A program made the position numbers and the translations under genes. Shown here in pieces: positions 1-42,429 of a stretch of DNA of 64,000 bases. The number at the start of each line of letters is the position of its first letter. The stretch's first letter is position 1. The stretch is from Photorhabdus heterorhabditis. Lineage in GTDB: Bacteria; Pseudomonadota; Gammaproteobacteria; Enterobacterales; Enterobacteriaceae. Location: NCBI RefSeq assembly GCF_018448905.1, contig NZ_RCWA01000009.1:1-64000 (forward strand). Reading direction: 5' to 3'. A model generated the notes under the pieces. The model made no database searches. It saw only the letters and a list, made by a program, of their open reading frames with translations, and was not told the DNA's origin.

Positions 1-145
1 AAGACAGCGTGGTTCAGAGGGCATGGCTTAATATCACTGGTGGAACAGCAACGGCAGTTCCAGCGTTAACATGAACCGCCGTATGCGGAACCGCATGTAC
101 GGTGGTGTGAGAGGACGGCGGGAGTGATCCCGCCTCCTACTCGAT
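1..145 (+). mobile_element. 3' end of a group II intron (domains V and VI), cut by the window edge
   Basis: Seen: a CCGTATGCGG / CCGCATGTACGG hairpin followed by GGTGTGAGAGG, a short GC-rich stem (GGCGGGAG / CTCCCGCC-like, about 115-136) and a CCTACTCGAT end near 145. This matches the domain V hairpin and domain VI/3' boundary of bacterial group II introns as I know them. The reverse-transcriptase ORF would lie upstream, outside the window. The intron end sits against the 3' end of the minus-strand GNAT gene, whose stop codon (137-139) falls inside the intron. Intron assignment is by remembered consensus and the exact 3' splice base is uncertain. Confidence 0.72.
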
Positions 146-34919: not shown

Positions 34920-36308
34920 ATGTCGAGTGGAGTAGTTACAGCGGCATATATTGTTGCCGCTATCTTATTTATTTTTAGTCTTGCAGGCTTGTCTCGTCAT
35001 GAAAGCTCCAAACGTGGGAATATTTTTGGTATTACCGGGATGGCAATTGCATTGATTGCGACTATCTTTGGGCCAGATACCGGCAGTGTTGTTTGGGTTA
35101 TTCTGGCTATGGTGATCGGCGCGGTTATTGGTATTCGCCTGGCAAATAAAGTTGAAATGACTGAAATGCCGGAACTGGTTGCAATCTTACACAGTTTTGT
35201 CGGCTTAGCAGCCGTATTAGTCGGTTTTAACAGCTTTATTGCTCACGATAGTTTTGCTGAACCGATAATGGAAAATATCCATCTGACAGAAGTATTCTTG
35301 GGGGTTTTCATCGGTGCAGTTACCTTCACAGGTTCTGTTGTCGCATTTGGTAAATTATGTGGAAAAATTTCTTCTAAACCGCTGATGCTACCAAATCGTC
35401 ATAAATTAAATCTTGCAGCATTAGTTATCTCTTTTGTATTGCTAGTGACTTTTGTGAAAACGGAAAGTATCGGTTTACAAGTATTCACGCTGTTAATTAT
35501 GACTGCAATTGCACTGGCGTTTGGTTGGCACTTGGTGGCTTCTATCGGTGGGGCAGATATGCCGGTAGTGGTTTCAATGTTGAACTCCTATTCTGGTTGG
35601 GCGGCAGCGGCAGCTGGTTTCATGCTGAGTAATGATTTACTGATTGTAACGGGTGCGTTGGTAGGTTCTTCGGGGGCGATTCTGTCTTACATCATGTGTA
35701 AGGCAATGAACCGTTCTTTTATCAGTGTAATTGCCGGAGGGTTTGGTACTGATGGTTCTTCAACTGGTGATGATCAGGAGATGGGAGAATACCGCGAAAC
35801 CACGGCTGAAGAAGTTGCTGAGCTGCTGAAAAATTCAACTTCTGTCATTATCACTCCGGGATATGGTATGGCTGTTGCACAGGCACAGTACCCAGTACAT
35901 GACATCACCGCCAAACTACGTGAAAAGGGGATTAAGGTTCGTTTTGGTATCCATCCAGTTGCAGGACGTTTGCCAGGACATATGAATGTGCTGTTGGCGG
36001 AAGCAAAAGTCCCTTACGACGTTGTTCTGGAAATGGATGAAATCAATGATGATTTTTCTGATACCGATACCGTACTGGTCATTGGTGCTAATGACACCGT
36101 TAACCCGGCTGCACAGGAAGATCCAAACAGCCCGATTGCTGGTATGCCTGTGCTGGAAGTCTGGAAAGCCCAGAACGTTGTTGTGTTCAAACGCTCGATG
36201 AACACAGGTTACGCTGGTGTGCAGAACCCACTATTCTTTAAAGACAATAGCCAGATGTTGTTTGGTGATGCGAAAGCAAGCGTAGAAGCAATCCTGCGTG
36301 CACTGTGA
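34920..36308 (+). CDS. pntB: NAD(P) transhydrogenase, beta subunit
   Basis: 462 residues, E. coli length. N-terminal half is membrane-spanning (about 9 helices). C-terminal domain III binds NADP(H) with [30 protein letters not shown] and [15 protein letters not shown]. Operon with pntA. Confidence 0.97.
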
Positions 36309-36328
36309 TTTTTTATCGTTATAACTAC

Positions 36329-36355
36329 AAACCCCACGTTATTTTGTGGGGTTTT
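36329..36355 (+). terminator. intrinsic terminator after pntB
   Basis: Stem AAACCCCAC / GTGGGGTTT with an 8-base loop, followed by TAATTT, 20 bases after pntB. Confidence 0.82.
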
Positions 36356-36390
36356 AATTTAACCTGAGATTTACTTAAGAAGGGAACGCT

Positions 36391-36452
36391 ATGCCTGAGA
36401 CACGATCAACGTTTTTATTAAAGGAAACAAAATCGTGAAGCTTCTCAGGCAT
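36391..36452. repeat. imperfect inverted repeat upstream of the Nudix gene
   Basis: Arms ATGCCTGAGA (36391-36400) and TCTCAGGCAT (36443-36452), extended inside by CACGAT (36401-36406) and ATCGTG (36432-36437), the extra 5 bases AAGCT forming a bulge. Total 62 bp, 22 bp from the Nudix start. Could be an operator, an mRNA leader hairpin or the remnant of a small mobile element. Confidence 0.6.
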
Positions 36453-36473
36453 GTGTAATTTAGGGGAAATTAA

Positions 36474-36962
36474 ATGAAAATAAGAAATTCCGCTAGGGCA
36501 TTATTGATCAATAGTAAACAGGAAGTACTGCTTTTTAAATTTAGTTTTGAAGAAATTAAAGACAATATTAATGCGGATTTGATTGAGTTTTGGGTTACTC
36601 CTGGTGGTGGTCTAAAAGAGGGAGAGTCCTTTGAGCAAGCATTAAATAGAGAGTTAAGTGAGGAGGTTGGTCTTATCCTAAGGTTTACACCTGAATGGAT
36701 TTGGACTAGAAACGTAGTTTTAGAATGGAAAGGTGAGAAATTTCTAAGTCACGAGAGATATTTTTTGGTATATGAGGACATTTGTGATAAAGAAGATAAT
36801 TGTATGACCGAAAAAGAGATACGTACCCTAAAAGATATGAATTGGTGGAGTTTGCAAGCACTATTAAGTTCTAGTGAGGACTTTCGCCCACCTAATATTG
36901 CTAAAGAAATACAAAAAATTATCTATGGTTATAATCAAAATTTCCCTATTGAAGTTGACTAG
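36474..36962 (+). CDS. Nudix hydrolase
   Basis: 162 residues. The Nudix box is complete: G-x5-E-x7-REL-x-EE-x-G from GGGLKEGESFEQALNRELSE into EVGL (about residues 43-66), so it should bind Mg2+ and hydrolyse a nucleoside-diphosphate-linked substrate. The specific substrate cannot be read from the sequence. AGGGGAAATT precedes the ATG. Single gene, not in the E. coli order. Confidence 0.82.
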   Translation: MKIRNSARALLINSKQEVLLFKFSFEEIKDNINADLIEFWVTPGGGLKEGESFEQALNRELSEEVGLILRFTPEWIWTRNVVLEWKGEKFLSHERYFLVYEDICDKEDNCMTEKEIRTLKDMNWWSLQALLSSSEDFRPPNIAKEIQKIIYGYNQNFPIEVD

Positions 36963-36971
36963 ATTATTTAA

Positions 36972-37088
36972 CTAACTCTTGATATATTGATACGCTTTTT
37001 CTAGGCCAAATTCTTGATAACTGTATTCAAAAATAGCCTCTAAATCCTGTTCAGCTTTAGGCTTTAGAAAAAATGTTTTACTGGACAT
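36972..37088 (-). pseudogene. truncated ParE/RelE-type toxin
   Basis: 38 codons only. MSSKTFFLKPKAEQDLEAIF then EYSYQEFGLEKAY is the N-terminal part of a ParE-family toxin, whose usual length is about 95. It ends at TAG 36972-36974 and the DNA beyond is the 3' end of the Nudix gene, so the rest has been lost. It overlaps the ParD stop by 11 bases, the usual arrangement. Confidence 0.72.
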
Positions 37089-37338
37089 TGTGTGTTTTAT
37101 TTTTCATACGTGTAAGGAAAGTATTGAGATCCCACTCTATAACTTCTCCACTGTTATCACCTTCATCAATTAGCTGACGAAGTGCTTCAAGTTTGGACTC
37201 AGCTTGTTTTTCCTGTAATAACCGTAATCCCTCCCGAACGACTTCACTATTAGTTTTGTAATAACCTGATTCAACTAGGCTTTCTACAAAACCACGTAAT
37301 TCTTCGCCGGTATCTACCGTCATTGTACGCGATACCAT
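37078..37338 (-). CDS. ParD-family antitoxin (orphan)
   Basis: 86 residues from ATG 37338, which has GAGGTGT 4 bases upstream (an earlier ATG at 37350 lacks one). Seen: MVSRTMTVDTGEELRGFVES and SGYYKTNSEVVREGLRLL, a ribbon-helix-helix antitoxin of the ParD/CC2985 type. The C-terminal part would wrap a ParE. With the toxin truncated it is now an orphan and may be decaying or serve as an anti-addiction relic. Confidence 0.82.
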   Translation of the reverse strand: MVSRTMTVDTGEELRGFVESLVESGYYKTNSEVVREGLRLLQEKQAESKLEALRQLIDEGDNSGEVIEWDLNTFLTRMKNKTHNVQ

Positions 37339-37635
37339 AATACACCTCATTCAGATAATTAACATTCTATAGTATAAGACATATTCTTACACTCCGAAAG
37401 TATTCCATTACGTACATAGGGTGCTCTTTATTGCACACTCCAGATAGATGGTCACTTTACTCTTTCTAATGTTAGAGCTTTAAATGGTAATCTATTAAAA
37501 TCAATATTTTCTAACTTATCAAAATAAATTCCTTATTAGGGGAATAAAGTCAATATTTTACTGTGATATTGATGCTGATCTAGTGGACGATGCTTAGTGT
37601 CCTCAAAAATTCGTTCGCAACCTACCTTAAGTAGA

Positions 37636-37745
37636 ATTGTGTCGCGAGCATAACAACATTTCTGGGTGTAATACACCGCACACATGTAAAGAATTTCGTG
37701 TTTGTTACTTAATCTCCAGCGTATCGTATCCCCGCCAGCGATAAT
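37636..37745. repeat. 110-bp direct repeat, copy A (displaced 3' end of the nickel permease gene)
   Basis: Identical to 38467-38576 except two bases. Copy B carries the last 40 bases or so of the nickel permease coding region plus the downstream sequence, and copy A carries the same sequence 831 bases away, with no gene to belong to. The intact RHH/RelE toxin-antitoxin genes lie between the copies. Confidence 0.92.
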
Positions 37746-37763
37746 GAAACCTATTGGGTATAG
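37746..37763 (-). repeat. ERIC end fragment
   Basis: GAAACCTATTGGGTATA is nearly the terminal 17 bases of the ERIC right end (GAAATCTATTGGGTATA) and starts exactly where copy A of the 110-bp repeat stops. Confidence 0.55.
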
Positions 37764-37777
37764 ATCTTGATGCAATT

Positions 37778-37814
37778 GCTGTCTCTTAGTTAGATTTCTC
37801 GATTAAGAGACAGC
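37778..37814. terminator. 11-bp perfect inverted repeat downstream of the intact toxin gene
   Basis: Arms GCTGTCTCTTA and TAAGAGACAGC with a 15-base loop, 33 bases past the toxin stop on the minus strand. Reads as a stem-loop that could end the TA transcript. No T-run. Confidence 0.5.
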
Positions 37815-37846
37815 GTTAATGGATAGTTTCTAATCTTGTAAAAGGG

Positions 37847-38143
37847 TTAATGTTTGTAGTTGATTTCTCGCTGGTGACGGATAGCCAAAATGTAACGTGT
37901 ATTACTTCCGGGGGCTTCTCTGTATAGCAATACATAGCCTGTGCCACCAAAAGAGATAATTAATTCAAAGAGTGGATAAACTTCTGTTGGCCGTCCAGCT
38001 AGAACGTTAGATTTCATTGCACGGATATGTTTGCTGATAATACTAAGTACTGATTTTGCAGCAACTGCATCGCGTTGACGTAAAAAGTCAACAAGACGAT
38101 TTATATCCCTTACAGCTGCTGGAGTGATTATTACCGATGGCAT
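37847..38143 (-). CDS. RelE/ParE-family toxin
   Basis: 98 residues. Seen: PSVIITPAAVRDINRLVDFL and the C-terminal YVLLYREA and YILAIRHQREINYKH, which follow the ParE/RelE fold. Either a gyrase poison or a ribosome-dependent mRNase; the sequence alone does not settle it. The start overlaps the antitoxin stop by 13 bases. Full length, unlike the truncated ParE upstream. Confidence 0.82.
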   Translation of the reverse strand: MPSVIITPAAVRDINRLVDFLRQRDAVAAKSVLSIISKHIRAMKSNVLAGRPTEVYPLFELIISFGGTGYVLLYREAPGSNTRYILAIRHQREINYKH

Positions 38144-38424
38144 TCAGGTAATTCCTTATTATCCTCGCCACGTGTGATAGCATCCAACCAGTCAGAAAGT
38201 TCATCGCCAGTCAAATGCAAGCCGGTAGCTTCATATTCTAACCAGGCGCTTTCGGCATCACGTAAAAATTGTTGTCTGGCTTCCAGTACATCAATTTCAT
38301 TTTCGATTGAACGGACCATGAGCGAATGGGCAGAAATGCCTTGCGTGTCAGCTAATGCTTTAATACGTGCTTTGAGTCCTTCATCTAAGCGAAGGGTTAC
38401 TGTCTGTTTCATTTGTTTATGCAT
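38131..38424 (-). CDS. ribbon-helix-helix antitoxin
   Basis: 97 residues from ATG 38424 (AAAGG just upstream), or 93 from ATG 38412. The N-terminal MKQTVTLRLDEGLKARIKAL is an RHH (CopG/MetJ-like) DNA-binding arm, and SLMVRSIENEIDVLEARQ follows. Probably autorepresses the pair. A longer frame to 38514 runs across the direct repeat and has no ribosome site. Partner of the RelE/ParE toxin. Confidence 0.82.
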   Translation of the reverse strand: MHKQMKQTVTLRLDEGLKARIKALADTQGISAHSLMVRSIENEIDVLEARQQFLRDAESAWLEYEATGLHLTGDELSDWLDAITRGEDNKELPECHR

Positions 38425-38466
38425 AGCCTTTCTCACAATGATATCATCAGTAATACAAATGCTATC

Positions 38467-38576
38467 ATTGTGTCGCGAGCACGACAACATTTCTGGGTGT
38501 AATACACCGCACACATGTAAAGAATTTCGTGTTTGTTACTTAATCTCCAGCGTATCGTATCCCCGCCAGCGATAAT
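38467..38576. repeat. 110-bp direct repeat, copy B (native 3' end of the nickel permease gene)
   Basis: Same sequence as 37636-37745 but for two bases (CG for TA in GCACGACAAC). It overlaps the last codons of the nickel permease at 38536-38576 and the region just downstream. Confidence 0.92.
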
Positions 38577-39549
38577 TCATCACTGATAATGTCCAGAACA
38601 AAATGAAAATTCCAACGACCCAAAAACCAACGTTACCCATATTGTCATTCAATGCTCCAATGGTGTCCCAGAAAATGCCGTGTAAATCCCACTGGTCAGC
38701 GATAAGCCCGAGCGCTTCCAGCCCACCGATGAACAACGCTACGGCGACGGAGGCAGCGGTAATAGTCATATTGTAGTAGATCTTGCGCGCTGGCTGGGAA
38801 AAAGCCCAGCCATAAGCCCCCACCATAACAAAATTATCCAGTGAGTCGATTAGCGCCATACCACTGGCAAATAGGGCAGGAAATACCATTATTGACCACA
38901 ACGGAAGCCCACTAAGAGAGCCAACAGCGGATATACTTAACAGACCAACTTCGGTAGCTGTGTCGAAACCTAACCCAAATAGAAAGCCAACCAGATACAT
39001 ATGCCAGCTTTTGTTCACCAATCGGAAGACTGAGTGGAACAAGCGGGTCATTATTCCTCCTGGCGTTGCTTCTAGTCCGGTTAAATCACTTTTAGCCAGA
39101 ATTCTTCCTCGTTTGATCTCCTGAAACTTCTGATAGACGCTTTTCAGTATCAGTAAATTAATCAGCGCTATTGCTAGCAGAAAACAGGCAGAAACTAAGG
39201 TACCAATAATGCCGCCATAATCATGGACCCAACCCATCTGATCTTTAAAAGCCATTGAGGTCAGGACAATGGCGAGGCAGGCCAGAATAACAATGGTAGA
39301 GTGTCCCAGGGAAAAGAAAGCGCCGACCGCAATGGATGATTTGCCTTGCTGCATCAGTTTACGGGTGACGTTATCAATTGCGGCGATATGATCGGCATCT
39401 ACCGCATGGCGTAGACCATAACCGTAAGCCAACAGAGCAGCTCCCATCATTACCGCATGATGACGGAAAGCAATAAATGCCCAAATCCAGGCAAGTATGT
39501 TGGCAGCAACCAGAACAACAAGAAGAGAAAGTGCGCGTTTTTTATGCAT
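38536..39549 (-). CDS. NiCoT-family nickel/cobalt permease
   Basis: 337 residues, about 8 membrane helices. Seen: the family metal signature RHAVDADHIAAIDN (H-x4-D-H) near residue 47, then LGHSTIVI, LGFDTATEVGLL and GMALIDSLDN, all NiCoT motifs. Located next to ureABC and transcribed away from it, so it most likely brings in Ni2+ for urease. Its 3' end is duplicated downstream. Confidence 0.92.
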   Translation of the reverse strand: MHKKRALSLLVVLVAANILAWIWAFIAFRHHAVMMGAALLAYGYGLRHAVDADHIAAIDNVTRKLMQQGKSSIAVGAFFSLGHSTIVILACLAIVLTSMAFKDQMGWVHDYGGIIGTLVSACFLLAIALINLLILKSVYQKFQEIKRGRILAKSDLTGLEATPGGIMTRLFHSVFRLVNKSWHMYLVGFLFGLGFDTATEVGLLSISAVGSLSGLPLWSIMVFPALFASGMALIDSLDNFVMVGAYGWAFSQPARKIYYNMTITAASVAVALFIGGLEALGLIADQWDLHGIFWDTIGALNDNMGNVGFWVVGIFILFWTLSVMNYRWRGYDTLEIK

Positions 39550-39855
39550 AATAAGAAACCTATTGATATTAAACCCGCTTGCGGGTGATTTCTAAGAGAA
39601 AAAACAGCTAGTATCCGCTGTACGCAATAATGTACGGTCTTCTGCTAAACCATAATAATAGTCAACTTGTAATATTACCTTGGATAAACTTAAATAAGAG
39701 GTAAGAGGACTAACTTGTTTTAAGGAGAATATCTTAATTGACATAATATGATTCTTATGTCAAAACTTTTTTCTAAAGGATATATGACCCAGTATTCAGA
39801 ATTATTTTGACATAAAATTGTAACTGTATGGAATAACCAATTATTAGGGGGTTTT
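39550..39855. other. divergent promoter region between the nickel permease and ureA
   Basis: About 306 bases that should hold both promoters. A short CCCGC/GCGGG hairpin lies at 39573-39584. I do not see a convincing NikR or UreR-type operator. Confidence 0.5.
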
Positions 39856-40158
39856 ATGCAATTAACGCCAAGAGAAATTGAGAAACTCATGGTATATACA
39901 CTGGCTGATGTTGCATTAAAGCGTAAGTCTCGCGGCTTAAAGCTCAATTACCCTGAAGCTGTCGCTATTATTACCACCGCTGCCTTGGAAGGGGCTAGAG
40001 AGGGTAAAACGTTAGAAGAAGTCATGAATGATTCCAGGCACGTCCTAACTAAAGAAGATGTTATGGATGGTGTGGCTGATCTCATTCCACATGTGCAGGT
40101 TGAAGCAATATTTACTGATGGCAGTCGTTTGGTGACTGTACATGATCCTATTCAATAA
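39856..40158 (+). CDS. ureA: urease gamma subunit
   Basis: 100 residues, the family length. Seen: [47 protein letters not shown] and a C-terminal [18 protein letters not shown]. Structural subunit of the (UreABC)3 enzyme. First gene of ureABCEFGD. AGGGGG before the ATG. Confidence 0.97.
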
Positions 40159-40713: not shown

Positions 40714-42429
40714 ATGCCAACCATTTCCCGGCAGGAATATGTGGGTCTTTTTGGTCCAACTATCGGTGATAAGATTCGCTTGGGTGATACCAATCTGTTT
40801 GTTGAAATTGAAAAAGATCTGCGCGGTTATGGCGAGGAGTCGGTCTACGGCGGGGGTAAATCTCTGCGTGATGGCATGGGTGCAGATAATCGTATGACCA
40901 GCGCAAATGTCTTGGATTTGGTGATTACCAACGTCACTATTTTGGATGCACGTCAAGGGGTAGTTAAAGCTGACGTCGGTATAAAAGATGGTCGCATCGT
41001 CGGGATAGGTAAAAGTGGTAATCCCAGTATGATGAATGGAGTGACCCCCGGTATGGTGGTTGGCGTCAGTACGGATGCGATATCTGGTGAACATCTGATT
41101 CTCACGGCGGCGGGCATTGATACCCACATTCATTTTATTTCGCCCCAACAAGCTGAACATGCTTTGTCCAATGGTGTGACGACTTTCTTTGGTGGTGGTG
41201 TTGGTCCCACTGATGGTACTAACGGTACTACTGTCACCGCGGGTCCGTGGCATATTCACCGAATGTTGCGTGCTTTTGAAGGCTTACCGGTTAACGTAGG
41301 TATTTTGGGAAAAGGCCATGCTGCGGTGGCTATGCCACTGGTGGAGCAGATTAAGGCCGGAGCTGTCGGGCTGAAAGTGCATGAAGACTGGGGAGCAACC
41401 AACTCTGCATTGCGTAATGCTTTACGAGTGGCAGATGAAATGGATATTCAAGTGGCGGTACATACCGACAGTTTGAATGAAGGTGGTTATGTTGAGGATA
41501 CCATTGATGCTTTTGAAGGGCGCACCATTCATACTTTTCACACGGAAGGCGCTGGTGGCGGGCATGCACCAGATATTATTAAAGTTGCCAGCCAGATGAA
41601 TGTGTTACCCAGCTCCACTAATCCCACGTTGCCTTACGGTATCAATAGTCAAGCAGAACTGTTTGATATGATTATGGTTTGCCATAACCTGAATCCCAAT
41701 GTGCCGGCTGATGTTGCCTTTTCTGAAAGCCGTGTGCGCTCGGAAACCATTGCCGCGGAAAATGTCTTGCATGACATGGGGGTATTGTCGATGTTTTCCA
41801 GTGACTCCCAGGCAATGGGGCGGGTGGGAGAAAATTGGTTGCGAGTGATGCAAACTGCCCATGCCATGAAAGCAGCACGCGGTAAGCTACCAGAAGATGC
41901 TGCGGATAACGATAATTTCCGGGTATTACGTTACGTCGCCAAAATTACGATTAATCCGGCGATTGCGCAAGGTATAAGCCACGTACTTGGTTCAGTCGAA
42001 GTGGGAAAAATGGCTGATCTTGTGTTATGGGAGCCGCGTTTCTTTGGCGCAAAACCTAAGTTGGTTATCAAAGGCGGCATGATTAACTGGGCGGTAATGG
42101 GTGACCCGAATGCTTCATTATCGACACCACAGCCGACATTTTATCGTCCGATGTTTGGTGCATTAGGCAAAACGCTTCAAGAAACTTGTGTAACTTTTGT
42201 ATCCCAAGCGGCAATGGAACAGGGGATAAAAGAACAGCTTGATTTGGCGCGCCAGGTCATGGCGGTACGTAATTGCCGGGCTATTTCCAAGCAAGATATG
42301 GTACGTAATGCCGAAACGCCAACTATTGAAGTGGATGCTGAAACCTTTGCTGTCAAGGTGAATGGTGAATATGCCACAGTGAAACCGGTCAGGACAGTCG
42401 CACTTAATCAGCGCTATTTCTTCAGTTAA
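40714..42429 (+). CDS. ureC: urease alpha subunit (catalytic)
   Basis: 571 residues. The Ni2 site ligands are visible: HIHF (His pair, near residue 139), carbamylated Lys in GLKVHEDWG near 220, and His residues in VHTDS and [15 protein letters not shown]. The mobile flap Cys is in MVCHNLNPN near 320. Hydrolyses urea to ammonia and carbamate. Requires UreD, E, F and G to be activated. AAAGGA before the ATG. Confidence 0.98.

Follow-up and report, generated by a model that had tools for sequence, protein, structure and literature searches.

This locus raises the question of whether a direct repeat around a toxin-antitoxin pair records the insertion of that pair. The 64,000-nucleotide stretch of DNA analyzed here (the window) contains a 110-nt direct repeat, copies A and B, with a start-to-start distance of 831 bp and 721 bp between the copies (Table 1). 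The copies are identical at 108/110 positions (98%), and the two mismatches lie side by side, TA in A and CG in B. Copy B consists of the last 41 bp of the NicO nickel permease ORF, stop codon included, and 69 bp beyond it. An intact RHH/RelE pair lies wholly between the copies, and copy A meets an ERIC end fragment, a kind of match that occurred at 0.05 per 64 kb in simple shuffles (both strands, no more than 2 mismatches). The initial annotation had described all four of these features correctly. From them it concluded that insertion of the toxin-antitoxin pair had duplicated the gene end.

The best CopG and RelB-like profile matches of the antitoxin have E values of about 1e-3, all under cut-off, and the toxin had no match among the NCBIfam profiles. 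The inverted repeat upstream of the antitoxin gene reaches with its outer arm across the edge of copy B. No integrase gene is present in the bracketed DNA, which consists of the pair and short noncoding stretches. Among the candidates scored, the 110-bp sequence occurs in the whole genome at these two places only. A site-specific element or insertion sequence around the pair was considered and rejected, as the repeats lack an insertion sequence and, among the candidates scored, were found at the two places only. The other near-identical nearby repeats in the window are two ERIC-type pairs (24909/25510 and 60137/62643); a 74-nt pair (57668/58043, 96%), present in one of two repeat listings, extends a larger tandem repeat. 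A short palindrome, GGTGTATTACACC, lies behind the permease gene (38496-38508) and again at 37665-37677. Six named relatives have GATGTATTACATC in its place, a paired change, and the palindrome may be a regulatory site.

Table 1. Features of the permease-pntB slot and its borders, with the evidence for each assignment.
Feature	Position	Strand	Evidence
NicO nickel permease	38536..39549	-	PF03824, E 7.9e-101
Copy B, native 3' end of permease gene with beginning of promoter region for the pair	38467..38576	-	Repeat and relatives
Inverted repeat, probable operator, upstream of antitoxin gene	38434..38472	.	19-nt arms, 84% complementary
RHH-type antitoxin	38131..38424	-	Weak CopG/RHH/RelB-type matches, all below curated cut-offs
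RelE/ParE-type toxin	37847..38143	-	PF05016, E 1.4e-12, above cut-off
Inverted repeat between pair and pntB, probable two-way terminator (predicted)	37778..37814	.	Sequence; in 10/12 relatives
ERIC element end fragment joined to copy A	37745..37762	+	17/18 positions match ERIC terminus
Copy A, stray permease 3' end (last 41 bp coding) and 69 bp downstream	37636..37745	-	Repeat comparison; relatives single-copy
Possible serine resolvase scrap, immediately after copy A	37596..37634	-	13 aa, 85% to resolvase of genome G006, E 0.009, small set; weak
Possible Tn3-family transposase scrap	37550..37591	+	14 aa, 79%, E 0.002, small set; weak
ParD antitoxin of second, broken pair	37078..37350	-	PF03693, E 3.1e-18
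Truncated parE, 38 aa	36972..37088	-	91-97% (aa) to five other genus loci
NUDIX gene, probably relic of P. asymbiotica cluster	36474..36962	+	PF00293, E 2.4e-14; match in L002
MITE-like repeat beside pntB	36353..36471	.	Dozens of genus matches, most ~75-87% identity
Presumed pntB, other slot border	34920..36308	+	ORF

Relatives were used to establish the native order. A permease search kept 80 loci, and the best 12 (L002-L013) are named Photorhabdus records. The nearest permease loci are those of P. australis (93.7% DNA identity over 1033 bp) and P. asymbiotica (92.7% over 1048 bp); judged by sequence, the host is a Photorhabdus near these two species. The gap between the permease gene and pntB, a name assigned to the border ORF from its sequence, was compared in the 12 named loci, with two (L008 and L013) covered via alignment only. 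The permease end is present in one copy in all 12, split in P. asymbiotica (L002) by ERIC-type elements. The pair or its remains occupies the gap in 11/12 loci, L004 being scored by eye only. Both genes are full-length in five loci (L006, L007, L008, L009, and L013), six loci are partial, and one lacks the pair. The partial loci hold a whole antitoxin with a broken toxin (L002 and L011), antitoxin pieces (L005 and L010), or, behind a RES/Xre-type pair now occupying the gap, a toxin scrap (L012 by blastn, L004 by eye only). The RES/Xre-type pair of L004 (L004:7168-8509) has a PF08808 toxin (E 1.2e-15) and a partner that matches an Xre/MbcA C-terminal family under cut-off; that of L012 was assigned by sequence likeness. 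P. australis (L003) is the locus without the pair, and its slot holds an Rpn/YhgA-type gene (PF04754, E 2e-83) and a NUDIX remnant. The contents of the gap vary accordingly among the RelE-type pair, the RES/Xre-type pair, the Rpn/YhgA gene, and, in the window, a broken parDE. Outside Photorhabdus, the pair was found near the permease gene in 0/68 loci (L014-L081, E 1e-2).

A further 12 Photorhabdus genomes, a set that overlaps the named loci, each gave a single location for the 110-bp sequence itself; this genome-wide search scored part of the first-look candidates, and a strongly diverged second copy could escape it. The matches are shorter (48-60 bp) in G003, G006, G011, and G012, and in G002 the match is two adjacent pieces split by ERIC-type elements. 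The pair has about 86% DNA identity to L006, L007, L008, and L013, whose aligned permease region has about 84-86%, and 84-85% identity to L009 and L011. Because the divergence of the pair matches that of its surroundings, and the pair or its remains is so widespread in the gap, the pair is a long-standing neighbor of the permease gene and copy B is the native end. On this comparison, B together with the pair is the ancestral state and copy A is a lineage-specific addition. The NUDIX gene of P. asymbiotica belongs to a gene cluster that fills the permease-pntB gap, and one deletion-like joint seemingly cuts both the toxin gene and the cluster's last gene. This joint makes it likely that the common ancestor had an intact pair. 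Fresh insertion of the pair into a pair-free permease end, with duplication of 110 bp, would give a structure of this shape. It is contradicted by the relatives, with the pair or its remains in 11/12 named loci and a single permease end in 12/12, and is very improbable; the duplication of the gene end by insertion of the pair, as initially annotated, is not borne out. The newcomer in the permease bracket is, on the same evidence, the extra permease-end copy and not the pair.

The sequence around copy A is debris. Copy A is bordered by the ERIC end on one side and by possible Tn3 scraps. The order from the ERIC end is copy A, the resolvase-like scrap, the Tn3-like scrap, about 140 bp, parD with the cut parE, the NUDIX gene, and the MITE-like repeat. 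In relatives such as L007, the conserved inverted repeat is followed by the end of pntB within about 40 bp, and the window has the debris at that spot. For the stretch behind A (37405-37650), a comparison with 198 family genomes gave no good relative; the 10 weak matches, in genomes of 0.3-1.1 Mb, look chance-like. The Tn3 transposase-like scrap matches 33 bp at 88% inside a Tn3-type tnpA of G009. A complete tnpA and tnpR are absent beside the pair, where the 13- and 14-aa scraps are found, and the whole genome has two short tnpA-type matches on other contigs. A plasmid search with the slot DNA returned four records, with matches to the parDE part or to the MITE-like repeat and to nothing else in the slot. 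Part of PMC7157771 describes Tn3 transposons in which parDE adjoins the resolvase gene. The window resembles them in having parD/parE near possible tnpR and tnpA scraps; it differs from the elements described there in having short fragments and no complete element, and the bracketed pair is another one. A link between this parD and a Photorhabdus Tn3 (L221) was rejected, as L221 holds a different pair between tnpA and tnpR. The parE gene is cut in nearly the same short stretch, by eye, at three places: the window (36972-37088) and L103 and L113, which are G008 and G002 loci. Rfam at the gathering threshold gave no match in the slot. Elsewhere in the window, Rfam matched 5'-ureB sRNA (56.8 bits, 40871-41160, minus strand), antisense to a urease gene, and a group II intron at the left end (74-145, plus strand).

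Copy A probably arose by partial duplication, either a tandem duplication with the second pair lost or templated copying. The RelE-type pair was by then an old resident between the nickel permease gene and pntB, in a slot torn by ERIC, probably Tn3, and other insertions. By the first route, the permease end and the pair would have been duplicated in tandem, the ERIC/A joint would be the duplication joint, and the second pair behind A would have been lost. By the second route, a templated copy of the permease end would have been pasted in during repair of the debris-rich gap. If A and B dated back to the split from P. australis or P. asymbiotica, the probability of two or fewer differences in 110 positions would be 0.028 or 0.011, respectively. 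Where the two copies differ, A agrees with 7/8 aligning relatives and B has changed. Gene conversion could make A and B look young, and this dating is weakened because conversion can keep copies alike; a sign of it is the letter shared by both copies at the mnmC locus of G002 (described below) and absent from other genomes.

The structure could also have been produced by re-insertion with a long target duplication, in which the pair was lost and the permease end and pair then returned by one crossover, leaving the resident end as copy A, in the manner of the long-target-duplication insertions reported for restriction-modification systems. Loss and re-gain are possible, as the pair is absent from P. 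australis (L003) and has a broken toxin gene in P. asymbiotica (L002), the closest relatives. Re-insertion accounts for both repeat edges, the ERIC joint and a break in the resident promoter, and mnmC and malY have brackets of the same type alongside one-copy counterparts. Such bracketed pairs at other loci hint at an insertion process to which the permease locus could also have been subject. Against re-insertion, the sequence behind A is debris with a tnpR-like scrap and no native flank, unlike the mnmC locus, where the native flank continues behind the far copy. Sliding identity gave no import signal at the permease locus: relB is 96% identical to P. asymbiotica over 329 bp, and 250-bp stretches on the permease/urease side range from 80 to 98%. 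Re-insertion also requires both a loss and a gain, and we consider it unlikely.

An assembly artefact, with two alleles joined or a 110-bp overlap misplaced, was considered because the assembly is a draft (5.05 Mb in 226 contigs) and one joint has an ERIC end, a repeat able to break assemblies. The two copies are separated by 721 bp and differ at two sites, there are no N letters within 36000-40000, and the two sides of the joint have, by eye, only about one base in common, all of which make an artefact very unlikely. Whichever way A arose, recombination between the 110-bp direct repeats would remove the pair and leave the permease gene intact. The pair should be removable in this way by analogy with mnmC, where one-copy, pair-free sites exist.

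The initial annotation had suggested looking for other toxin-antitoxin genes flanked by copies of neighboring gene ends, and such pairs were found at mnmC-yfcL and at a malY-like gene. In the source genome, a RelB/ParE pair at mnmC-yfcL (G000:C11:90104-91487; L294, L343) lies between 43-bp gene-end copies. Profiles identify the pair (PF04221 and PF05016), YfcL (PF08891), and an oxidoreductase (PF01266) whose gene, beside yfcL, is presumably mnmC. The 43-bp repeat contains the last few codons of the mnmC-like gene, the stop codon, and the following sequence. Two copies with the pair are present in 4/13 genomes, and the copies within each genome are 95% identical in G000 (the source), 98% in G002, 88% in G003, and about 81-88% in G005 (by reading). 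Three genomes (G001, G007, and G008) have one copy and no pair and run straight into the same flank. The empty site predicted by the insertion reading, one copy without the pair, is present here in 3/13 genomes and has no clean example at the permease gene (0/12). By eye, the single copy in G001 and G008 resembles copy 1, and that in G007 resembles copy 2 of G005. The other six genomes have no clear repeat by eye; five retain remains of the pair and G012 has none. Since the pair or its remains is found across the genus, the one-copy mnmC sites look like losses through the repeats.

The second case is an Aminotran_1_2 gene that we take to be malY-like. Copies of its 3' end lie beyond cargo in three genomes (G011, G012, and G006; loci L334, L331, and L330), and the cargo differs. 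G011 has a 133-bp copy (99%) and a PaaA2/ParE pair, and G012 has a 133-bp copy (92-96% to the query) and a BrnT/BrnA pair. G006 has an 80-bp copy (92%) beyond 13 kb of cargo, a T6SS-like island with ORFs presumed to be VgrG-like and Rhs-like. A BrnT search found the gene in 1/13 genomes, in the malY-bracketed copy. G002, G003, and G000, three of the six genomes assigned to this paralogue by identity, have the same malY-like paralogue (83-85%) with one copy and no cargo. The same flank adjoins the malY-like end in G002 and G003 and starts after about 260 bp in G000. A second malY-like paralogue (78-81%), also in one copy, is present in most other genomes. Stray copies of the malY-like 133 bp were also seen elsewhere (L332 and L333).

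The permease locus teaches caution about direction, in that repeats flanking a gene pair are no proof of its insertion. Elsewhere in the genus, brackets of a similar kind that have counterparts lacking the pair hint at a recurrent way of gaining or losing toxin-antitoxin pairs. The mnmC and malY sites have two-copy and one-copy states in one genus, and the malY bracket carries different cargo, which makes gain, loss, and exchange of toxin-antitoxin pairs via flanking repeats directly testable. We tentatively propose that Photorhabdus type II pairs of several families may enter and leave gene borders within direct repeats of 43 to about 300 bp copied from the neighboring gene, as in the long target duplication of restriction-modification systems. 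The repeats would provide a precise exit, and addiction would let pairs within brackets persist longer than other genes so placed. Among the members of this class, the permease pair would be one whose bracket was rebuilt by re-insertion or later duplication. The proposal as a whole is possible rather than probable, and at mnmC and malY the general idea is worth pursuing.

Related arrangements have been described. Passages of PMC3874152 and PMC3031569, which cite Nobusato 2000 and Furuta 2010 for a long, variable target duplication, describe insertion of restriction-modification systems with long (about 100 bp) target duplication. In view of these articles, the initial remark that the arrangement does not correspond to a described mobile unit is not entirely correct; among titles and abstract openings, no plain report of target duplications for type II toxin-antitoxin pairs was found. 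As in the restriction-modification systems described in those passages, the permease locus has an addiction-type pair flanked by direct repeats of about 100 bp, which are copied from the target and through which the pair could be amplified or deleted. It differs in that the pair is older than the second copy and is a type II toxin-antitoxin rather than a restriction-modification pair, and the mnmC and malY loci fit those accounts better than the permease locus does. Part of a 2020 review (PMC7167474) calls the movement and integration of chromosomal toxin-antitoxin pairs unelucidated and describes gaps that accept different elements, ccd in folA-apaH and parDE in relA-mazG; decay of such pairs is also described there and in part of PMC2654758. 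The permease-pntB gap resembles these plastic intergenic slots in its fixed borders, varying pairs, repeats, remnants, and visible decay, and differs from those described in that part of the review in that a direct copy of a gene end brackets the pair. For Photorhabdus, part of PMC3091717 describes rearrangement linked to ERIC elements.

The frequency of brackets was compared between ParE loci and control loci (HTH_3 and resolvase). A first pass at 90% identity gave 5/30 ParE, 1/29 HTH_3, and 0/26 resolvase loci; one of these ParE brackets (L235) is an artefact of a cut locus, and the sole HTH_3 bracket (L288) is also an artefact. The second pass used 1.5-kb flanks and repeats of at least 40 bp, with the identity threshold loosened from 90% to at least 85%. 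It took in another 40 ParE loci, following list order and skipping three near contig ends, and another 39 HTH_3 loci, which for the most part followed list order; loci were dropped as short (ParE 1, HTH_3 5, resolvase 5). Brackets were found at 12/69 ParE loci, which are the better-scoring part of 153 matches rather than a random draw and do not include the window's own pair, and at 1/64 HTH_3 and 0/25 resolvase loci (12/69 versus 1/89 controls, p = 0.0002). The same loci at 90% identity give 9/69 versus 1/89. Counted by sequence group, the values are 6/19 ParE versus 1/26 controls (p = 0.031), and 4/19 versus 1/26 (p = 0.15) without the ERIC and IS982 brackets. The 40 added ParE loci include the previously known L343, L349, L352, and L364, of which L343 and L352 count as bracketed. 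With the loosened threshold and previously known loci in the sample, the excess of brackets at ParE loci is a lead and no proof.

Several other pairs lie between longer repeats. L353, L354, and L361 have PaaA2/ParE-like pairs between repeats of 235-296 bp near a gene that we take to be ligB-like, and the L361 repeat is a copy of the 5' part of this gene. L346 and L356 have an RHH/ParE pair resembling that of the window between 124- and 157-bp repeats, in a different order relative to what are presumably a VapBC-like pair and a beta-lactamase-like gene. These five brackets may reflect tandem duplication of neighboring toxin-antitoxin regions rather than insertion. Two parDE pairs lie between shorter repeats, 43 bp of a TPP-enzyme-like gene at L228 and 70 bp of an IS982 scrap at L229.
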